Shown in pieces: positions 1 through 32,864 of a DNA stretch of 56,920 bases; the stretch's first letter is position 1; each line of letters begins with the position of its first letter. The position numbers were made by a program, and so were the translations under genes. The notes under the pieces were generated by a model, which did no database searches, was not told the origin of the DNA, and saw nothing but the letters and a program-made list of their open reading frames with translations. Origin of the DNA: a virus; IMG/VR virus record IMGVR_UViG_3300039159_000083, positions 1-56,920 of that record; one strand, 5' to 3'.

Positions 1-644
1 AACTCATACACCCTAACACATTTGGGGAAGATCTGGACAAGGTCAGTTCTTCTGCTCTTACAACCATCAGCAGAGTCGTAAGGATTTAACATCCTAAGCT
101 CTGATATGAAGTGCATAGTGGAGTAAGAAGCATAGCTGATTAACTGGTCTTGGTAATCCTTCTCTGATTTAGTGGATATACTAGGTAACTCTAGAAGTCT
201 AGTAGTCTCCATTTCAATTGAGTTAGATCCTAGCTGTTGAAAGTCTTTGGCTGCGGCAGACTTACCCTGCACTAAATAGGAGTAAGCATGGAGCCAATCA
301 CCTACCCAAAGGGAGTTAATCCTACCCAAAGATTTACCCGTGGCTTCAAAGTATTTAACCTTAAACTTAGCCAGATTCTCTCCTTCAAACTTGTAACCCT
401 TACCAGCTAAGGATTCTGACGAGACGTTTTTTAGACGGGGCGTCAAACTACTTGACCAATTGTCTGTGTAGTCGCCAGCTTCTAATCCTTTAGCTACTGC
501 TAGCTCAGACATTACAACCCAAGCACCATCAGAGTTATAGACCCAATTAATATTATATTCATTAGTAAGTCTAACTAGTTCTTCTAATGTATTAATATCA
601 GCTGAGGAATCAATTGACAGAATAGAGTCTTTAAGTGTTATCAT
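1..644 (-). CDS. Hypothetical protein, 3' end cut by window edge
   Basis: An open frame starts with ATG at 642-644 (protein begins MITLKDSILS) and runs without a stop to base 1, giving at least 214 residues. Its C-terminus lies outside the window. The codon pattern matches neighbouring genes. I do not recognise the family. The N-terminal third is acidic and contains the segment WVVMSELAVAKGLEAGDYTD. Residues about 67-80 are encoded by a diverged copy of a palindromic element found twice more just upstream. A second near-identical ATG context (TATGATAACACT) occurs 17 bases further upstream but opens only a 10-codon frame. The gene is the last of the minus-strand series and follows a 249-base non-coding gap. 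Function unknown; the reading frame itself is secure. Confidence 0.75.
   Translation of the reverse strand, partial: MITLKDSILSIDSSADINTLEELVRLTNEYNINWVYNSDGAWVVMSELAVAKGLEAGDYTDNWSSSLTPRLKNVSSESLAGKGYKFEGENLAKFKVKYFEATGKSLGRINSLWVGDWLHAYSYLVQGKSAAAKDFQQLGSNSIEMETTRLLELPSISTKSEKDYQDQLISYASYSTMHFISELRMLNPYDSADGCKSRRTDLVQIFPKCVRVYE
405..444 (-). repeat. Palindromic element, copy A (short, in frame inside a gene)
   Basis: The plus strand shares AGCTAAGGATTCT at one end and CGTC at the other with the two 64-base copies at 775-838 and 896-959. The centre is shortened and rich in T. It is read in frame within the left-most gene without breaking it. That it is a decayed copy of the same element is inferred from the shared ends and the shared 61-base flank. 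Confidence 0.55.
445..505 (-). repeat. 61-base segment duplicated at 839-899
   Basis: This part of the left-most gene is repeated at 839-899 with 3 mismatches in 61 bases by hand alignment. Both copies lie next to a palindromic element (405-444 and 775-838), so the element and its flank were copied together. Confidence 0.85.
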
Positions 645-670
645 AGAAGTTGAGTGTTATCATATAGGAT

Positions 671-699
671 ATAGGTGCTCCTTTATTGGTAGCACCTAT
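671..699. terminator. Hairpin between two minus-strand genes, possible terminator
   Basis: Perfect 9-base arms ATAGGTGCT (671-679) and AGCACCTAT (691-699) enclose an 11-base loop. The T-rich tail (ATTTTATTATAA) follows on the plus strand, which would suit a plus-strand terminator, yet no plus-strand gene is seen here. On the minus strand it sits 27 bases before the ATG of the left-most gene, with a purine-rich AAAGGAG in the loop, so a leader role is equally possible. Confidence 0.5.
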
Positions 700-774
700 T
701 TTATTATAACCTATGTATAGGGCTACTTACAGCTTTATTCTAGATTAAAGGAAGAGTTTTATTGGGGTGGGGCT

Positions 775-838
775 AGCTAAGGATTCTAACAAGGTGTTTG
801 ACTAGTCGGATCTGTTTCGACTAGTCAAACGCTCCGTC
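775..838 (-). repeat. 64-bp palindromic element, copy B
   Basis: A 64-base unit contains a perfect 13-base inverted repeat (GTTTGACTAGTCG, 796-808, with CGACTAGTCAAAC, 818-830) and a 9-base loop. It aligns without gaps to copy C at 896-959, with identical ends AGCTAAGGATTCT and CAAACGCTCCGTC. It lies in the non-coding gap between the left-most gene and the next gene. Confidence 0.8.
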
Positions 839-899
839 AAACTACTTGACCAATGGTCTGTGTAGTTGTCAGCTTCTAATCCTTTAGCTACTGCTAGCT
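775..899 (-). pseudogene. Duplicated fragment of the left-most gene, broken by stop codon
   Basis: Read on the minus strand from 898, this stretch encodes LAVAKGLEADNYTDHW, almost the same as residues in the left-most gene (LAVAKGLEAGDYTDNW). It then enters palindromic element B and meets a TAG stop. There is no start codon or ribosome site. It is a segmental duplication of part of that gene, or a remnant of a paralogue that carried a full-length element where the surviving gene carries a shortened one. Confidence 0.6.
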
Positions 900-1358
900 A
901 AGGATTCTGATGAGGCCTTTGAATGGTCGGGACAGATCCGACCGTTCAAACGCTCCGTCGGATCTAGTTAAGGCTAGATGGCTTTTAGCTTCTTCTATAC
1001 TATCTACTACAAAGGTATCCCGACTTCCTACTACCCAGCAATAGAATATCTCTTTACCGCAGGAGAGTTCTCCTCTTTGACAGAGAGCTATCTTCTTACC
1101 GTTATCAAGAAGTACTCTAGATATATTCTCTTCTCTACTAATAAGGCCTTCTAATCTAACTCCTTTCCTAGCAGCATTAGATAGCGCCGCCTTAATACTG
1201 TCTGCATCATTGGGGCAATACCTAGCCACTTCTTCTACAGATTGTCTTAGTCTTTCTATGTCTAGATGTAATTGATGAGCCACCTCTTTAGATGTCAGTG
1301 GAGTGCCACCATCATAAGTTATTAAGGGATAACACTCACAGGAAGTATGGACCGACAT
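894..1358 (-). CDS. Hypothetical protein, 154 residues, C-terminus from repeat element
   Basis: ATG at 1356-1358 has a good ribosome site (AGGAG, spacing 8) and overlaps the end of the preceding gene by 23 bases. The N-terminal half contains a helix-rich stretch (TSKEVAHQLHLDIERLRQSV) that could be a small helix-turn-helix, but this is a guess. The last 21 residues (from SDGAFERS onward) are encoded by palindromic element C, so the native C-terminus was probably replaced when the element arrived. I do not recognise the family. Its position behind the terminase suggests it is co-transcribed with it. Confidence 0.65.
   Translation of the reverse strand: MSVHTSCECYPLITYDGGTPLTSKEVAHQLHLDIERLRQSVEEVARYCPNDADSIKAALSNAARKGVRLEGLISREENISRVLLDNGKKIALCQRGELSCGKEIFYCWVVGSRDTFVVDSIEEAKSHLALTRSDGAFERSDLSRPFKGLIRILS
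896..959 (-). repeat. 64-bp palindromic element, copy C, overlapping a gene end
   Basis: The same 64-base unit as copy B. Here the arms are TTTGAATGGTCGG (918-930) and CCGACCGTTCAAA (938-950), with one G-T pair and a 7-base loop. The loop sequence is inverted relative to copy B. It supplies the last 21 codons and the TAG stop of the 154-residue gene at 894-1358. Confidence 0.8.
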
Positions 1359-2247: not shown

Positions 2248-5200
2248 TTATCTCTTCTTCTTATATAAAGTATTAATAGCTCTACCTATATTTAACTTGG
2301 TATTACTTGAATTAGGTATGTTCTTTAGGTTACCTGATTTAATACTAGCTATTTGTACTTGAGTACCAAGGGTAAGCCCAGAACTAATCATATCTAAGTA
2401 ACAGGCATAGACAGCGTTAACTACTGCATCTGCCATATCTTTACCTGCTAGATTATGAGTTACCTGACCATTAGGTTTAACTATAATTTCACTAAGTTCA
2501 GTTATAAGAGTAGATATATATACTGAATCCCTGGGTAGTTCTAATAAACCTTGGGATAAAAGATCTCTAAATGTAGTGTAATAAGTTAATTGTTGAACTC
2601 TAGCAGTAGACATCTGCTCAGTAGAGAAACCTAATGTATGTAACTTCTGTATAGAAGATTCAGAGTTAAAGGAGTCAAAGGTAATCTTAGAGGCGTGTCT
2701 AGCTTTACCTAATTCTATAATGCAATCCTCTACATTTTGATAGGAGACATATCTCTGATGACCTGTAGAATCTAAATAGGGTTTCCATCTGATTAGAGCA
2801 TCAAGTGATATACCCCATCTATCATCTGCCATCTTAATGGCATGACACATAGCAAGAGCAGTGGCATCTCTTTTAACTGAGAAGTCTACATGTATGAATG
2901 ACCGGATAGAAGTATTCTTTTCTAATCTAGTTATATCTACTTCTACATATCTCTTAGTCTCAGAAGATATTTCTAAGTTCTTATCTCTCTCTAATGTATC
3001 TATACAAGAGAAACCAGTACAAGCTTTATCACATAGCTGGGCACTTATAAAACCAGTGGATAACTTCCTTCTAATACCTTCATACTCTAACTCAGCCTTT
3101 ACCCTATTCTTAATATAATCAGAGTTACAATTGGCCCTTGATACAGCCTCTAGTTTGTTTAAGTCCCAAGTACGAAGACGGAAGAAGACAGTATCAGGGT
3201 CAGCTTGAGTATCATTAATAAGTCTCTCCATAGGGTCACCAGTACACCATGCAGAGGAGATGGCTACCTTATGTCCTAGAGCACCAAATCTATTGACACC
3301 AGCCCCTACGTTAGAGAAGAGATGATCACCAGCACTTGTAATGGTTCCATCATCTTCTATCTTATTCTCAAAGCGGGCAAACTCATCTAATATCATTGCC
3401 TTAAGGGTATAACCAACTAAAGCCGGTGAGTTAGTATGTTTGGCATAGATGGCAACATTCTTAGCAGGACACTTAATAGTCTCTGCTAGTATCTCTATCT
3501 TCCCAGAGTCTTGCATTGCCTTAAAGAAATAAGAATCTGCAGCATAACCCCTTATCTTAGCAAAGAGAGTATCTTTAACTTGCTCTAAGGTCTGTGCTAT
3601 TACAAAGAGTGCTATAGGGTCATTAGGTAGTAATTTGTAGTGACGGGCAGGATTAGGTAGGGTAATGAGGGAATAGAACTCATATAAGGCTATAATGGCG
3701 GCTATCGTCGAATTGTGAGAAATGATATCATTACCAATAATGTTGGTACCCTTAACCTCTAAAGCTATAGTGGAGGCCGTACCTTCTAAAGTAAGTGATG
3801 CTATAGGTTCCCATAAGATGGGGGCATCAATGAAACAGGAAAGGTCTATAATACCTAACTTGTGGGCGGCATCTTTGGCTTTAGCCTTTGATAATCTATC
3901 CTTCCTGATATAACTATTAGGGGTAAGGCCTAAAGAGGTCCAGCTAACCTTAGATTTATATTTAGCCTTCTCAATAAGATTCAGGGCCCCTTTAGGTAGA
4001 AGTTCTATTCTTTGGTCTCTATCTAATCTCTTACTGATTATTTCTATAGCTTGATTTAAAGCTTCGCCTTTACTATATATACCTATATCTTGAGAGAACT
4101 TAAGAATATCCCTTTTAGTTCTAATAGCTAGTTCCCAAGCATCAAAGTTTTTACTATTGCATGTAGCTATCTTATGGAAGGTGTGTGAGGTAATACCAAA
4201 TTTAAGTAGCTCTCTTTGTATGTCATCAATAAAGTCTTTAGAGGCTAGGGTTATGCCTAGTGTCACCCTAGTGGGAGTACTAGAACAATATCCATCACAA
4301 GAGAACAAACGTGATAGGAAGCTGGCCACCTCTTCTTTAGGGGCTTCTTTAATACATGTTGGTATTCTTTTATTCTTAGATAACTTATCCCACTCTCCTA
4401 AACTCTTTATCCAATTCATTAGAGGATTAGGCGTACCCCCAGTCATCCCAGCTTGGTGGGATATACGATATTGTATCTTGGTGCCACCTATGAGCTTTAT
4501 TCTGTAGCTAGGGAACTCTCTATTTAATATGTCCTGTATATCTTCTATTACCATAGACTGCTCATTGGTAAAAGTGATAGATTCACCTCTTACACTACCA
4601 TCTCCCCATATATAACCTAGGAGGGCAGCTTTATCTAAACCAATGGACTTTCCACCAAATAACTCTTGGGATTTAGCTACAGCTACATAATCCCCTACTT
4701 CTAAGTCTTTAACTTCCACCCATCTAGGTACATCCCAATCATCTCTCCAAACTAGGTAAGGATGTTCCGCAGTAACTTTATCAGCTCTCCCACTCTTAGT
4801 TCTAAGTTCATATACTTCTTTAACGCCATTAAACTCAGTAGCTATGTCGTAGCTAATATACTTTTCCCAGGTAGCAGGGTTATAAGTAAATATTCCTATT
4901 CTTTCTCCTCTAGATAATCTCTGATGTAAATCTCCATAGGAAAGGCTACCTACCGTAGTAGTAATAAAAGAGTCTTCTGAACAGCACTTACTGTTATGCG
5001 AGATTATGGAGTTCCCTATAATACTAGTATCTGTAACTTCTAATCCTACTATTCTTTTCATACCTACTTCGATGAGTTCTTCTACCCCATCCCATCTAAT
5101 ATTAGATTGGGCTAAAGTTTTAAGTTCCTCATCCTTTAGATTAGTAGCATAAGTAATAACCTTTGACTTAGAGGGAGCATATTGCTTTCTAAGTCTGGAA

Positions 5201-6588
5201 TGATCTGTGTTAATCCCTCCAGTAACTTGCCTATTACTAAATTTAAGAGTCTCTTGCTTATCGTTTATCCTATCCCAAACTGAGCAGGGTAGGGTGTCTA
5301 CCTTACATTGAGACCTTATATCTGGGTTAGATGTGATTGCTTCTATAGCCTTCAACTTATCTTCTTTGGAGAAGATGCCAATCTGATGAATGAAGTTAGA
5401 AAGGGATTGTTTATCACTAATAGTTAAGGCCCAGGCATCAAATAGCTTACCATTACACTTGGATGCTTTGTAGTTTACTCTACTAGCTATGCCAAACTTT
5501 ACCAGCTCTCTTTGTATATCTTCTATAAACTCTTTGGAGGCTAAGCATATACCAATAATACATTTAGGATTAGGATGTTTGTCTATTAGTTTACCTACAC
5601 ACGCATATCCATCACAGGCAAATAGTCTTGATAAGAAGGTAGCTATCTCTTCTTTAGGGGCTTGTTTAATACAAGGAGGTATCCTTTTATGAATAGCTAG
5701 TTTACCATGCTCTCCTATTTCTCTTAGCCAACATAAGAGAGGATTACCTTGACCAGGTTTAGCAGATAATGTGTAGCCATACTTTGCTGCCCCTTTTCTT
5801 ATACGTATAGTCGGAAAGGATTCATCTAATATAGATTGTATCTCTTCTATTATTCTAGAGTCCATATTAGTAAACCTAATAGAGGAGCGCTGAGATAAGC
5901 CTCCATCTCCTAATAGATAGCCTAATAGTTTAGCCTTAGCTACTCCTATAGAAGTAGTACCAAATAAGGGAAGGTTATCTAGTACTGCTATACGATCCCC
6001 TACTACTAAATCCTTTAGTTCTACCCATTCTGGTAGCCCCTTTCTCCATATAAGATAAGGGTGGTCATAAGTGCACTCTTCTTCTTTACCCGCCGCAGTC
6101 TTTATTCTTATGGCAGGTTCCTCCCCTTTATCCCAAGTCTTTATGTCATAAGTAGTATAGGATTCCCACGTGTCTGGATTAAGAGTAGTAATTCCTATGG
6201 TTTCTCCTAATAACTTTCTATCTCTTAGTTCTCCATATGTAATAGTTCCTACTGTAGTTATTACATAAGAATCTTCAGAAGGGCATCCACCACGCCCTAC
6301 TTCTAGTATTAAATTCTTATAGCTTCTACCTTCTACCCAATTAGTTCTACCCTCATATTTCCATTGAGCTAATACATTCTTCTCTATATCATTTAGGTCT
6401 TCACCATACATGGTTTTGAGAAGTGCTGTCTGCTGAGGGAATAACTGGGCACTACCATTAAATACAATATCCTCAGCAAACTCTATTATAGATATGGAGT
6501 TATTCTGATTAGACCCTATACCAGCAGCAGCAGAAGTAATAAAACCATCAAAGAGGTTATCTAAGTTAGTGGTTTTCTTATTAACCAT
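2248..6588 (-). CDS. Large terminase subunit with two inteins
   Basis: DNA-packaging motor: ATPase plus nuclease that cuts concatemers and drives DNA into the capsid. The 1446-residue precursor holds residues 1-101 of the ATPase, intein 1 (102-532), Ser533-Lys534, intein 2 (535-959), then the rest of the ATPase and the nuclease. After removal of both inteins the protein is 590 residues, normal for the family. The joined P-loop reads GRGGSKST. Walker B is AMILDEF (Asp1068-Glu1069). The RNase H-like nuclease acidic residues are Asp1235 (HVDF), Asp1305 (TFDSFN) and Asp1384/Asp1387 (KDMADA). ATG 6586-6588 has AGAGG upstream and overlaps the preceding gene by 8 bases. Odd points: both inteins interrupt the P-loop, and the Gly that normally precedes the P-loop Lys is Ser. 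Confidence 0.96.
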   Translation of the reverse strand: MVNKKTTNLDNLFDGFITSAAAGIGSNQNNSISIIEFAEDIVFNGSAQLFPQQTALLKTMYGEDLNDIEKNVLAQWKYEGRTNWVEGRSYKNLILEVGRGGCPSEDSYVITTVGTITYGELRDRKLLGETIGITTLNPDTWESYTTYDIKTWDKGEEPAIRIKTAAGKEEECTYDHPYLIWRKGLPEWVELKDLVVGDRIAVLDNLPLFGTTSIGVAKAKLLGYLLGDGGLSQRSSIRFTNMDSRIIEEIQSILDESFPTIRIRKGAAKYGYTLSAKPGQGNPLLCWLREIGEHGKLAIHKRIPPCIKQAPKEEIATFLSRLFACDGYACVGKLIDKHPNPKCIIGICLASKEFIEDIQRELVKFGIASRVNYKASKCNGKLFDAWALTISDKQSLSNFIHQIGIFSKEDKLKAIEAITSNPDIRSQCKVDTLPCSVWDRINDKQETLKFSNRQVTGGINTDHSRLRKQYAPSKSKVITYATNLKDEELKTLAQSNIRWDGVEELIEVGMKRIVGLEVTDTSIIGNSIISHNSKCCSEDSFITTTVGSLSYGDLHQRLSRGERIGIFTYNPATWEKYISYDIATEFNGVKEVYELRTKSGRADKVTAEHPYLVWRDDWDVPRWVEVKDLEVGDYVAVAKSQELFGGKSIGLDKAALLGYIWGDGSVRGESITFTNEQSMVIEDIQDILNREFPSYRIKLIGGTKIQYRISHQAGMTGGTPNPLMNWIKSLGEWDKLSKNKRIPTCIKEAPKEEVASFLSRLFSCDGYCSSTPTRVTLGITLASKDFIDDIQRELLKFGITSHTFHKIATCNSKNFDAWELAIRTKRDILKFSQDIGIYSKGEALNQAIEIISKRLDRDQRIELLPKGALNLIEKAKYKSKVSWTSLGLTPNSYIRKDRLSKAKAKDAAHKLGIIDLSCFIDAPILWEPIASLTLEGTASTIALEVKGTNIIGNDIISHNSTIAAIIALYEFYSLITLPNPARHYKLLPNDPIALFVIAQTLEQVKDTLFAKIRGYAADSYFFKAMQDSGKIEILAETIKCPAKNVAIYAKHTNSPALVGYTLKAMILDEFARFENKIEDDGTITSAGDHLFSNVGAGVNRFGALGHKVAISSAWCTGDPMERLINDTQADPDTVFFRLRTWDLNKLEAVSRANCNSDYIKNRVKAELEYEGIRRKLSTGFISAQLCDKACTGFSCIDTLERDKNLEISSETKRYVEVDITRLEKNTSIRSFIHVDFSVKRDATALAMCHAIKMADDRWGISLDALIRWKPYLDSTGHQRYVSYQNVEDCIIELGKARHASKITFDSFNSESSIQKLHTLGFSTEQMSTARVQQLTYYTTFRDLLSQGLLELPRDSVYISTLITELSEIIVKPNGQVTHNLAGKDMADAVVNAVYACYLDMISSGLTLGTQVQIASIKSGNLKNIPNSSNTKLNIGRAINTLYKKKR
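3712..4986 (-). other. Intein 2 in terminase P-loop, LAGLIDADG type
   Basis: 425-residue protein intron, precursor residues Cys535 to Asn959, inserted between Lys534 and Ser960, two residues after intein 1. Block A begins CCSEDSFI; block B has Thr606-x-x-His609; the end is GNDIISHN with His958 and Asn959, and the +1 residue is Ser960. LAGLIDADG motifs are LLGYIWGDGS (Asp663) and FLSRLFSCDG (Asp765). It matches intein 1 over the splicing and endonuclease parts but differs in the linker before block F, so it is a diverged paralogue rather than a fresh copy. Confidence 0.95.
4993..6285 (-). other. Intein 1 in terminase P-loop, LAGLIDADG type
   Basis: 431-residue protein intron, precursor residues Cys102 to Asn532, inserted between Gly101 and Ser533. 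Splicing block A starts with Cys102 (CPSEDSYV). Block B has Thr173-x-x-His176. Block F/G ends GNSIISHN, with penultimate His531 and terminal Asn532; the +1 residue is Ser533. The central homing endonuclease has both LAGLIDADG motifs, LLGYLLGDGG (Asp228) and FLSRLFACDG (Asp326), so it looks catalytically intact. It is clearly homologous to intein 2 throughout. Boundaries come from matching both inteins end to end and from restoring the P-loop. Confidence 0.95.
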
Positions 6589-22660: not shown

Positions 22661-23893
22661 ATGCTTGATACAGTAGGCAAAAGGCAAGGTTATCTATCTG
22701 GCTCTATAGATGGAGATGGATATAGCATAAACTACGAATATGATAAGCCAGATAGGAGCAATACAGAGATAGTTAAAAGGGTGGGATTTACTAATACTGA
22801 CTTATCAATATTAGAAGCTTTTAAGTCCTGTCTTAATTCCTTGAACGTTAGCTATGGAATGAGTTCACAAAAGACCGTGACAAATAAGGATAGCTATAAC
22901 ATCTCCTGTTCTAATAAAGAAGGGCTATGTGTGTTATCTAGTAATACATACTTAAAGGTTTTATATAAGGAAGAGGCCCTAACTAAAACTTTAGAGTCTG
23001 TTTATCTTCATGGAGATAAACCTATAAAGTTATGTAGCTTTGAAGATATGGACTTCAAATTAGGCTGGCTGGCGGCTATGTTAGATTCTGAGGGTTGTAT
23101 CCTTTATAGCAAAACTAACTACTCAATAAGGATATGTAATACGGACTTAGAAGTTATTGAGTATTGTCAACAGATATTAGAAAGCTTGCATATAGCCTAT
23201 AAAACTTACTCTCATAATAAACAGAATAAAGATGGAATAGTTAGAAAGCCTACACATCAAGTTTGTATATTACAAGCCAAACATATATTAAGGTTTAGTA
23301 GCTTAGTGCCTATCCAATCTGAAAGGAAGATAGAGAAACTAAAAGATCTATGTACTTATTTAAGTAGAGATAAATATAGATTTTCCACAGAAGAACTTGC
23401 TAGGATGCATGTAGAAGAAGGTCTTAGCTTCTCAGAGATAGGTAGAAGATTAGGTGTTGGCGAGTGTAGGTCAGGAGGTTTGGCTAAGCAGGTAAGGGAA
23501 GGAGGGTATGTAGTCAACACTATAAAATCTAGAGGGCCTTATGCAGCTTTGGATGTTAATGACTCTCAGCTTAAGGAGGTCTATGATAGACTTCTGAAGG
23601 GTGAATCAATGAGCCAGATACTTATCTCTATGGGCTTTAAAGCTAATAGAGGTACTACTATATATAAACTATTAGACTCTAAAGGTTATAAAGTAGATAG
23701 CGGTCATGGAAAACTATATAAATTATTAGATACATTGGGAGCAGAAGAGATTATAAAAAGGTTGGACTTAGGAGTTACAGCTTCTAGAATACTTAGAGAT
23801 GCTGGAATTGAAACTAGGTCTACAACTTCTTTGTTTAACTATCTAGAAAAAGCTGGTCATGATGTAACTAAGTATAGAAGAAAGAAGAACTAA
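22661..23893 (+). CDS. Free-standing LAGLIDADG homing endonuclease
   Basis: A 410-residue protein on the strand opposite to all neighbours. Two LAGLIDADG motifs are visible: GYLSGSIDGDGY (10-21) and LGWLAAMLDSEG (134-145), each with the acidic residue needed for metal-dependent DNA cutting. The C-terminal half carries helix-turn-helix-like units: SFSEIGRRLGVGE near 255, and two later segments with SMSQILISMGF and TASRILRDAGI, suggesting extended DNA contacts. ATG 22661 lacks a clear ribosome site, as is common for such genes. It sits between two tail genes and is followed by a weak terminator. It is not inside an intron or intein that I can see. Confidence 0.88.
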   Translation: MLDTVGKRQGYLSGSIDGDGYSINYEYDKPDRSNTEIVKRVGFTNTDLSILEAFKSCLNSLNVSYGMSSQKTVTNKDSYNISCSNKEGLCVLSSNTYLKVLYKEEALTKTLESVYLHGDKPIKLCSFEDMDFKLGWLAAMLDSEGCILYSKTNYSIRICNTDLEVIEYCQQILESLHIAYKTYSHNKQNKDGIVRKPTHQVCILQAKHILRFSSLVPIQSERKIEKLKDLCTYLSRDKYRFSTEELARMHVEEGLSFSEIGRRLGVGECRSGGLAKQVREGGYVVNTIKSRGPYAALDVNDSQLKEVYDRLLKGESMSQILISMGFKANRGTTIYKLLDSKGYKVDSGHGKLYKLLDTLGAEEIIKRLDLGVTASRILRDAGIETRSTTSLFNYLEKAGHDVTKYRRKKN

Positions 23894-31202: not shown

Positions 31203-31755
31203 TCATTAGTTCTATCTTCTGTTTCTTATTTACTAATCTATCTATGGGTGTAGAGTAAGCAACCCAATGAAGTATACCTTGATCTTCTACATAAGAAGAA
31301 GGATAACTAATTAAATTAGGGTTATGTTCTTCTATTAAGGAGACATCAGTATGTAACCCTAGTATTCTAATAGAGGAGGCTAGATAGTAATCAGGTTCGA
31401 TTAGACAAGAAATATATAAATGAGTAGGGCTAGGTAAATACATGCCCTTCTCTAAAGTTATATCTGTTAAATCTCTAATCACATGCCATTGCTTATTTCT
31501 AAATAGGAACTCACCACAAGGAGAGATAAGAGCCGGTAAACACTCATATAACCTAACTATAGATATAAGTTCTGTCACCTCTGTAAGAGAGGAGGAGGGA
31601 TTAGGAGGATTAGTATCATTGATGTTAGTATCAAATACATCTAACCATGCAGAGTCCTTAGATAAGGACATATACTTATTAGAAGGGTCTCTAACAAAGG
31701 ATAGAATCCTATTAGCCTTATTAGATAAAGTAAGTGAATTATGTATGATAGACAT
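31192..31755 (-). CDS. Small baseplate wedge-like protein
   Basis: 187 residues, ATG 31753-31755 overlapping the flavoprotein stop by one base (TAATG), with GGAGAG upstream. The pattern MSLSKDSAWLDV...NPPNPSSS (29-56) recalls phage wedge proteins in which a short strand precedes a Trp-Asp...Pro-Pro-x-Pro segment, as in many cyanophage baseplate proteins. The rest alternates strands and helices. No enzyme motif. Its place between the I-like wedge region and the two giant tail proteins supports a baseplate role. The family call is tentative. Confidence 0.6.
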   Translation of the reverse strand: MSIIHNSLTLSNKANRILSFVRDPSNKYMSLSKDSAWLDVFDTNINDTNPPNPSSSLTEVTELISIVRLYECLPALISPCGEFLFRNKQWHVIRDLTDITLEKGMYLPSPTHLYISCLIEPDYYLASSIRILGLHTDVSLIEEHNPNLISYPSSYVEDQGILHWVAYSTPIDRLVNKKQKIELMIDL

Positions 31756-32864
31756 TAACTATTTATACTCTCCATTATTTCCATAGCTGTAATACCTGAG
31801 GATAGTATTGAGGCTTGTCTAGGCCCATCATATCTAAGAGATAGAATACCTGTAAAGTATATATTACTATTTGGGGACTTAAATCCTTTTATTAATAGAG
31901 GAAAGTTTTTATCACTAGGAAGCCTTTCTACATTATTAAACATAGGACTGCTATTTAAAGAAGGTGTGGTGCCAGTACAGATAACAATGTAATCCACTTC
32001 TTCAACTATAGGTTCCATTTCTCTAGTTGAGGTAGGATTAATTATGTCTACATCAGATAGCTGATTAGATACCTCTTCTGTAATAGAAGGTTGCCAAGCC
32101 TTTACCTGTTTCAAATAACTTTCTTGGAGTGAGTTATCTCCATGGAAAGATCTATAAAAAGATCCTAAAGCACTTCTTGGTCCCCAGTCCTGATAAACAG
32201 GTGAGGGATAACGAGTTATCTTATGTTCTTTACTAATAGCCCAATGTACCTGGTTAGTCAAAGATAAATGAGCAACATACTCAGCACTTGCTTGACCAGA
32301 ACCTACAACTAAAATAGTCTTCCCTTGTACAGCAGTTCTTAGACATTCCGCTCTACTGATTATCTTAGAATAAAGATGAGTCTTATTTATCCATACAGGC
32401 ACCTTAGATAAAGAGTTAGAACCTGTGGCAATAATTACTTCATCTACTCTTAAGATATCCCTATCATCTAATCGGATCCAACCTTCTCCCATATCAATAG
32501 CATTCTTAGGTATATGAATTACACCTCTAGATATCAACTTATCAAAAGTATGTTCTAAATAAGAAAGAAACTCAGTTCTATTTACAGAGCAAGGACATTC
32601 TTCTGCTTCTTGTTGAGTAACATAAGAATAGGGAGTTCCCAAATAATTATCTAATCTCCATTCATCATAACTAGAATCTAAGAAGGAAACTAAATCAAAG
32701 GAGACAGGACTTCTCATGATAATGTCTGGAATTATATTAGGGTGTTTCCATGCAGATAGAGGTGTCCTATCTATAAGATATACCTTATTACCCTCTCTGA
32801 TAGCACATATAGCTATGGATAAGGCTCTGGGGCCTGACCCTATTATTCCTATAACACTCTTCAT
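31755..32864 (-). CDS. FAD/NAD(P)-binding oxidoreductase in baseplate operon
   Basis: 369 residues, ATG 32862-32864 with GGGAG at spacing 5. Two nucleotide-binding folds are clear. The FAD site is GIIGSGPRA at residues 6-14, ending the second strand with LIDR. The NAD(P) site is ILVVGSGQAS at 184-193. The ATG motif VIIATGSN is at 143-150, a second VICTGTTP at 294-301, and IYFTGI at 335-340 fits the C-terminal FAD contact. This layout matches the flavin monooxygenase / lysine-ornithine N-hydroxylase-like superfamily. Substrate unknown. Tail genes flank it on both sides and it shares a one-base stop-start overlap with the next, so it is made together with baseplate proteins. No signal peptide. 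Confidence 0.88.
   Translation of the reverse strand: MKSVIGIIGSGPRALSIAICAIREGNKVYLIDRTPLSAWKHPNIIPDIIMRSPVSFDLVSFLDSSYDEWRLDNYLGTPYSYVTQQEAEECPCSVNRTEFLSYLEHTFDKLISRGVIHIPKNAIDMGEGWIRLDDRDILRVDEVIIATGSNSLSKVPVWINKTHLYSKIISRAECLRTAVQGKTILVVGSGQASAEYVAHLSLTNQVHWAISKEHKITRYPSPVYQDWGPRSALGSFYRSFHGDNSLQESYLKQVKAWQPSITEEVSNQLSDVDIINPTSTREMEPIVEEVDYIVICTGTTPSLNSSPMFNNVERLPSDKNFPLLIKGFKSPNSNIYFTGILSLRYDGPRQASILSSGITAMEIMESINS

Follow-up and report, generated by a model that had tools for sequence, protein, structure and literature searches.

A coding quasi-palindrome in a cyanophage gene and its two neighbouring copies: partial duplication as the probable origin of an apparent palindromic element

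We analysed a stretch of 56,920 nucleotides of viral DNA (IMG/VR virus record IMGVR_UViG_3300039159_000083, positions 1 to 56,920; hereafter the window), and in particular three related palindromic copies, A, B and C, that lie in and around two minus-strand genes near its start. The tail sheath encoded in the window shares 50% identity with its counterpart in Microcoleus phage My-WqHQDG and 41% with those in Microcystis phages of the Ma-LMM01 group; the window is therefore a contig from a cyanophage akin to this group. No close relative was found when the large terminase was used as the query. A second contig, IMGVR 3300039159_000237 (our loci L004/L006), overlaps positions 1-150 at 99.3% identity (one mismatch) and carries the reading frame of gene 1 onwards; the genome of the phage is thus likely to be longer than the window by 33 kb or more. 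Gene 1 (3..644, minus strand) encodes 214 amino acids in the window and 336 with the overlapping contig; it contains copy A. Gene 2 (894..1358, minus strand) encodes 154 amino acids, and its last 21 codons and stop are copy C (896..959). Copy B (775-838) lies between the two genes. A reading made from the letters alone, the sequence-only reading, had taken these copies for a 64-bp palindromic element that inserts in frame in phage genes.

Gene 1 matches phrog_37791 (E 1.7e-7) and has homologues at fifteen IMG/VR loci and in phages My-WqHQDG, Ma-LMM01 and MaMV. In copy A, the insertion proper (417..446, minus strand) has 30 nucleotides, with ends TGACG...CGTCA, and makes up codons 67-76 of gene 1 (TTG ACG CCC CGT CTA AAA AAC GTC TCG TCA, read as LTPRLKNVSS), which the homologues lack; the copy A region as a whole is translated as AVAKGLEAGDYTDNWSSSLTPRLKNVSSESLAG. 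The length difference is set by conserved anchors alone and is independent of gap placement: 17 residues separate NW from G in gene 1, against 7 in locus L020 (NWSKSNKLQGKG) and 8 in locus L021 and in My-WqHQDG (NWRGCQPELPG), the two types of homologue nearest to it. Hence, copy A is a ten-codon in-frame insert that coincides with the palindrome at 417-446. In the homologues from Microcystis phages the loop is of intermediate length, which indicates that the loop is variable within the gene-1 family. In AlphaFold2 predictions (seven sequences) the N-terminal part of gene 1 is well predicted, with a predicted local distance difference test (pLDDT) mostly above 80 for the block, whereas the values drop below 50 for residues 64-77, the stretch that holds the insert, with well predicted segments on either side. 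This agrees with the insertion being tolerated in a loop. When aligned to C, the palindrome of copy A is shortened by a single gap of 24 nucleotides at its centre, which keeps the frame. In-frame insertion into a phage gene is thus upheld for copy A. The proposed fixed left end is not, because AGCTAAGGATTC (405..416, minus strand) encodes E-S-L-A, aligned with NKLQ or PELP in the homologues, and is native gene-1 coding sequence instead of the end of an element.

Gene 1 consists of an N-terminal domain and a C-terminal region in which we read by eye a PD-(D/E)XK-nuclease-like motif, RRTDLV...VYELK. Since the palindromes are located in and beside this very gene, one might speculate that they are target sites of its product and that the array arose from its cutting and subsequent repair. 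We consider this very improbable: the homologues are devoid of the palindrome, and neither family searches nor a fold search of the PDB, which returned no match below E 0.1, provided a match in support of a nuclease. The My-WqHQDG homologue (locus L009, 1715-3043) carries an N-terminal extension that resembles, by eye, a second copy of part of the N-terminal domain, and the gene-1 family may therefore be prone to internal duplication.

Copies B and C have exactly 64 bases each and are 78% identical over 67 nucleotides. Their common ends are exact, as the sequence-only reading had it: AGCTAAGGATTCT occurs at 405, 775 and 896, and CAAACGCTCCGTC at 826 and 947. Yet, the sequence that B shares with gene 1 extends beyond the palindrome, which had escaped that reading. 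The 57 bases adjoining B (839-895) match positions 445-501 of gene 1, the codons for AVAKGLEAGDYTDNWSSS on the minus strand, at 54 of 57 positions. All three differences alter an amino acid, in one case the conserved N in NW, and this is what a decaying copy free of constraint should show. Together with its flank, copy B forms a unit of 121 bp (775..895, minus strand) whose translation in the gene-1 frame is AVAKGLEADNYTDHWSSSLTERL...LLESLA and which can be described as a pseudogene fragment; with gene 1 as the tblastn query, residues 48-71 match this unit at 83%. The palindrome of B itself (787..840, minus strand) spans 54 nucleotides, i.e. 18 codons in the gene-1 frame with one TAG among them, and includes a perfect stem of 13 bp (796-830). 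On the minus strand and in this frame, B with its flank reads AVAKGLEADNYTDHWSSSLTERLTSRNRSD*SNTLLESLAS and C reads TERLNGRICPDHSKASSESLAS, so that both show TERL...ESLA, with a stop in B.

AGCT occurs in gene 1 at 405 and again at 502, and the B-C joint, ...GCT/AGCTAAGG at 895/896, lies at the same motif; C, the second unit, starts immediately after the last base of unit B. Recombination between the two AGCT sites, duplicating 405-501 in tandem, would give precisely this joint. We tested two features of a partial tandem duplication, sequence in common beyond the palindrome and a joint at a short repeat that bounds the source segment on either side, and both are present. The matching flank and the AGCT joint thus mark B and C as what is left of a partial gene-1 duplication. 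This is at odds with independent insertions in several genes, as previously proposed. Copy C is indeed the end of a gene, as A is a shortened copy in frame in another, but gene 2 reads C in a frame different from that of A, so that insertion in frame holds for one gene only. No homologue of gene 2, with or without copy C, was found. That the frame stays open for 21 codons through C before it meets a stop is not remarkable; gene 2 merely continues that far.

We put at about 0.7 the probability that a coding quasi-palindrome arose in a single gene and that partial tandem duplication multiplied it and template switching reshaped it. This is the explanation with the best support, and local duplication accounts for most of what is observed. 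Under this scenario, gene 1 would first have gained, in the cyanophage lineage, a quasi-palindromic insert of 54 nucleotides (18 codons) in a loop that is poorly conserved and probably flexible. The part of the gene around it would then have been duplicated in tandem by recombination at the short AGCT repeats, so that two units, B and C, now decayed, remained between gene 1 and gene 2, presumably with no function. Later, the working gene 1 may have lost 24 nucleotides (8 codons) at the centre of the palindrome with the frame kept. The relics would have retained the full hairpin, their arms homogenised and their loop flipped by template switching in replication. This order of events is our inference, as is the mechanism of template switching.

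The alternative of a small mobile palindromic element, Rickettsia-type or akin to repetitive extragenic palindromic (REP) sequences, with ends near AGCTAAGGATTCT and CGCTCCGTC and three independent insertions, has some points in its favour. The left boundaries of A, B and C coincide, as do the right boundaries of B and C; the lengths, 54 and 30 nucleotides, are in frame; and copy C has a guanine-plus-cytosine content of 53%, above the 36% of the genome. Yet, B is flanked by gene-1 sequence, the end at AGCTAAGGATTC aligns with native gene-1 codons, no target-site duplication was seen and no copy was found elsewhere in the collections searched, where the scan of host genomes required GGATTCT. 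We find no sign that the palindrome is a mobile element and regard three independent insertions as unlikely. Less probable again is a short selfish palindrome, capable of in-frame insertion into protein genes, that spreads among Ma-LMM01-like cyanophages or among their hosts and of which several copies were caught at the gene-1 region.

The searches for further copies bear directly on this question. None was found in the window or in the adjoining 33-kb contig. A covariance model found none in Ma-LMM01, MaMV-DC, the gene-1 loci or the My-WqHQDG contigs with homologues of gene 1 or the tail sheath, and none turned up in IMG/VR (four patterns) or in phage and plasmid records. A scan of 84,980 prokaryote genomes returned two unrelated matches (L007 and L008); its pattern required GGATTCT, which is gene-1 sequence outside the palindrome, so that host palindromes in other contexts would be missed. 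Five IMG/VR matches to the arms alone (L035-L039) had their folds examined and none is an element of this kind; one of them, L037, is a weak covariance-model match (18.9 bits, E 0.09) that reads by eye as a methyltransferase-like coding motif. Further copies in the genome or its relatives, on which the idea of an inserting element depended, are therefore absent as far as could be searched.

The observation itself holds, and its details are unusual. B and C are the top two hairpins in the 56.9-kb window, folding on the plus strand at -27.7 kcal/mol (z -5.8) and -27.5 kcal/mol (z -4.1), respectively. A single hairpin equal to B appeared in 4 of 60 shuffled windows, which implies that two homologous ones at a distance of 121 bp are not due to chance. 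The arms (GACGGAGCGTTTGA ... TCAAAC) had been said to differ between copies and yet keep pairing, as a sign of selection on the fold. The pattern is looser than that: 12 of the 19 pairs are unchanged and 2 have changed on both sides, but 2 have changed on one side and 3 are broken in one copy. The case for compensatory change thus comes down to two pairs, and the covariation between B and C was equalled by 111 of 500 shuffles.

Strong folding and the two doubly changed pairs might suggest a function for B and C as RNA or DNA hairpins between gene 2 and gene 1, maintained for processing, as a 3'-end stabiliser, as a terminator or for protein binding. The genes, however, are on the opposite strand, where folding is weaker, the covariation is no better than in shuffles, and little of the hairpin is left in the copy that the working gene carries. 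Furthermore, no Rfam family matched and no terminator- or promoter-like site was found. Selection on a functional fold is therefore doubtful, with slightly lower odds than independent insertions of a mobile element. An intrinsic terminator was ruled out by the absence of a T-run. Two other candidates were rejected: a hammerhead ribozyme, for which CTGATGAG is present but with neither the GAAA core nor a matching stem, and with no Rfam match, and an integron attC site, for which TCTAAC occurs in B only and the matching far end is absent.

Template switching may account for the pairing. A switch of template from one arm of a short inverted repeat to the other is documented to homogenise the arms and to invert the spacer (PMC8604942), so that the kept pairing of B and C can be explained without selection on the fold. 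Compared with the loop of C, that of B agrees at 8 of 10 positions with the reverse complement and at 5 of 10 in direct orientation, so that the loop may be inverted between these two paralogous copies.

Several observations nevertheless weigh against duplication of a coding quasi-palindrome. The homologues of gene 1 are only about 24-38% identical to it, none of them from a strain-level relative with an empty or pre-duplication site, and loop length could vary for other reasons. The low pLDDT of residues 64-77 may equally stem from missing alignment columns. A simple tandem duplication fails to explain two of the ends: the left end of B is the start of a unit with no preceding unit, and the right end of C falls exactly on the outer edge of its palindrome. 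A break at the hairpin would be a plausible cause of both. Finally, B and C differ by 22% in the palindrome, more than the 5% that separates the spacer from gene 1.

Elsewhere in the window, the large terminase gene (2248-6588, minus strand) contains two inteins, of 431 and 425 amino acids, inside its ATP-binding loop (GRGG/SK/ST), with an extein of only two residues (S-K) between them. Direct repeats D4 and D9 show the two inteins to be related, which suggests a double insertion into one conserved motif. A free-standing LAGLIDADG protein (22661-23893, plus strand; PF14528, E 7e-14) is encoded amid minus-strand tail genes. Among the tail and baseplate genes lies a gene at 31755-32864 (minus strand) whose product matches phrog_29209; the corresponding place in My-WqHQDG is occupied by an annotated pyridine nucleotide-disulfide oxidoreductase of similar length.

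The locus illustrates how a palindrome within coding sequence may arrive in a phage gene, multiply when part of that gene is duplicated, and then decay and have its loop inverted, until it mimics a mobile element with compensatory changes. Neither selection on a fold nor mobility should thus be inferred from two or three neighbouring copies.

Several known systems invite comparison. Rickettsia palindromic elements (Ogata et al. 2000/2002, reviewed in PMC10969869) are likewise palindromic inserts that keep the frame of a protein gene and occupy a site tolerant to insertion. The likeness noted by the sequence-only reading stands to the extent that the sequence is palindromic and that copy A is inserted in frame relative to homologues without it. 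Unlike the elements of Rickettsia (conorii; PMC10969869), found at several unrelated sites, the copies here occur in one gene and in relics of its own duplication, with host genomes inadequately searched, and the end at AGCTAAGGATTC, being native ESLA, is not distinct from the host gene. CGTC-tagged REPs (PMC3733652) also form a hairpin ending in CGTC, but their CGTC is unpaired, their stems have 8-9 bp and their copies are many and dispersed; here CGTC is paired in the stem of C, stems have at least 13 bp, and there are three local copies, two of them full. On the features tested, membership in either class fails. The coding palindromes of Nematomorpha mitochondria (PMC6649704) are inverted repeats within translated sequence, as here, yet they are perfect, reach 284 bp and encode conserved protein in both arms, whereas the insert in gene 1 is short, lies in a variable loop and has decayed in the working gene. 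A parallel for B and C may be the short inverted repeats shaped by template switching (PMC8604942), whose homogenised arms and inverted spacer recall the alike arms and the seemingly inverted loop of B and C; there the process was documented in yeast coding genes with parental sequences, and here it is suggested by two paralogous copies.
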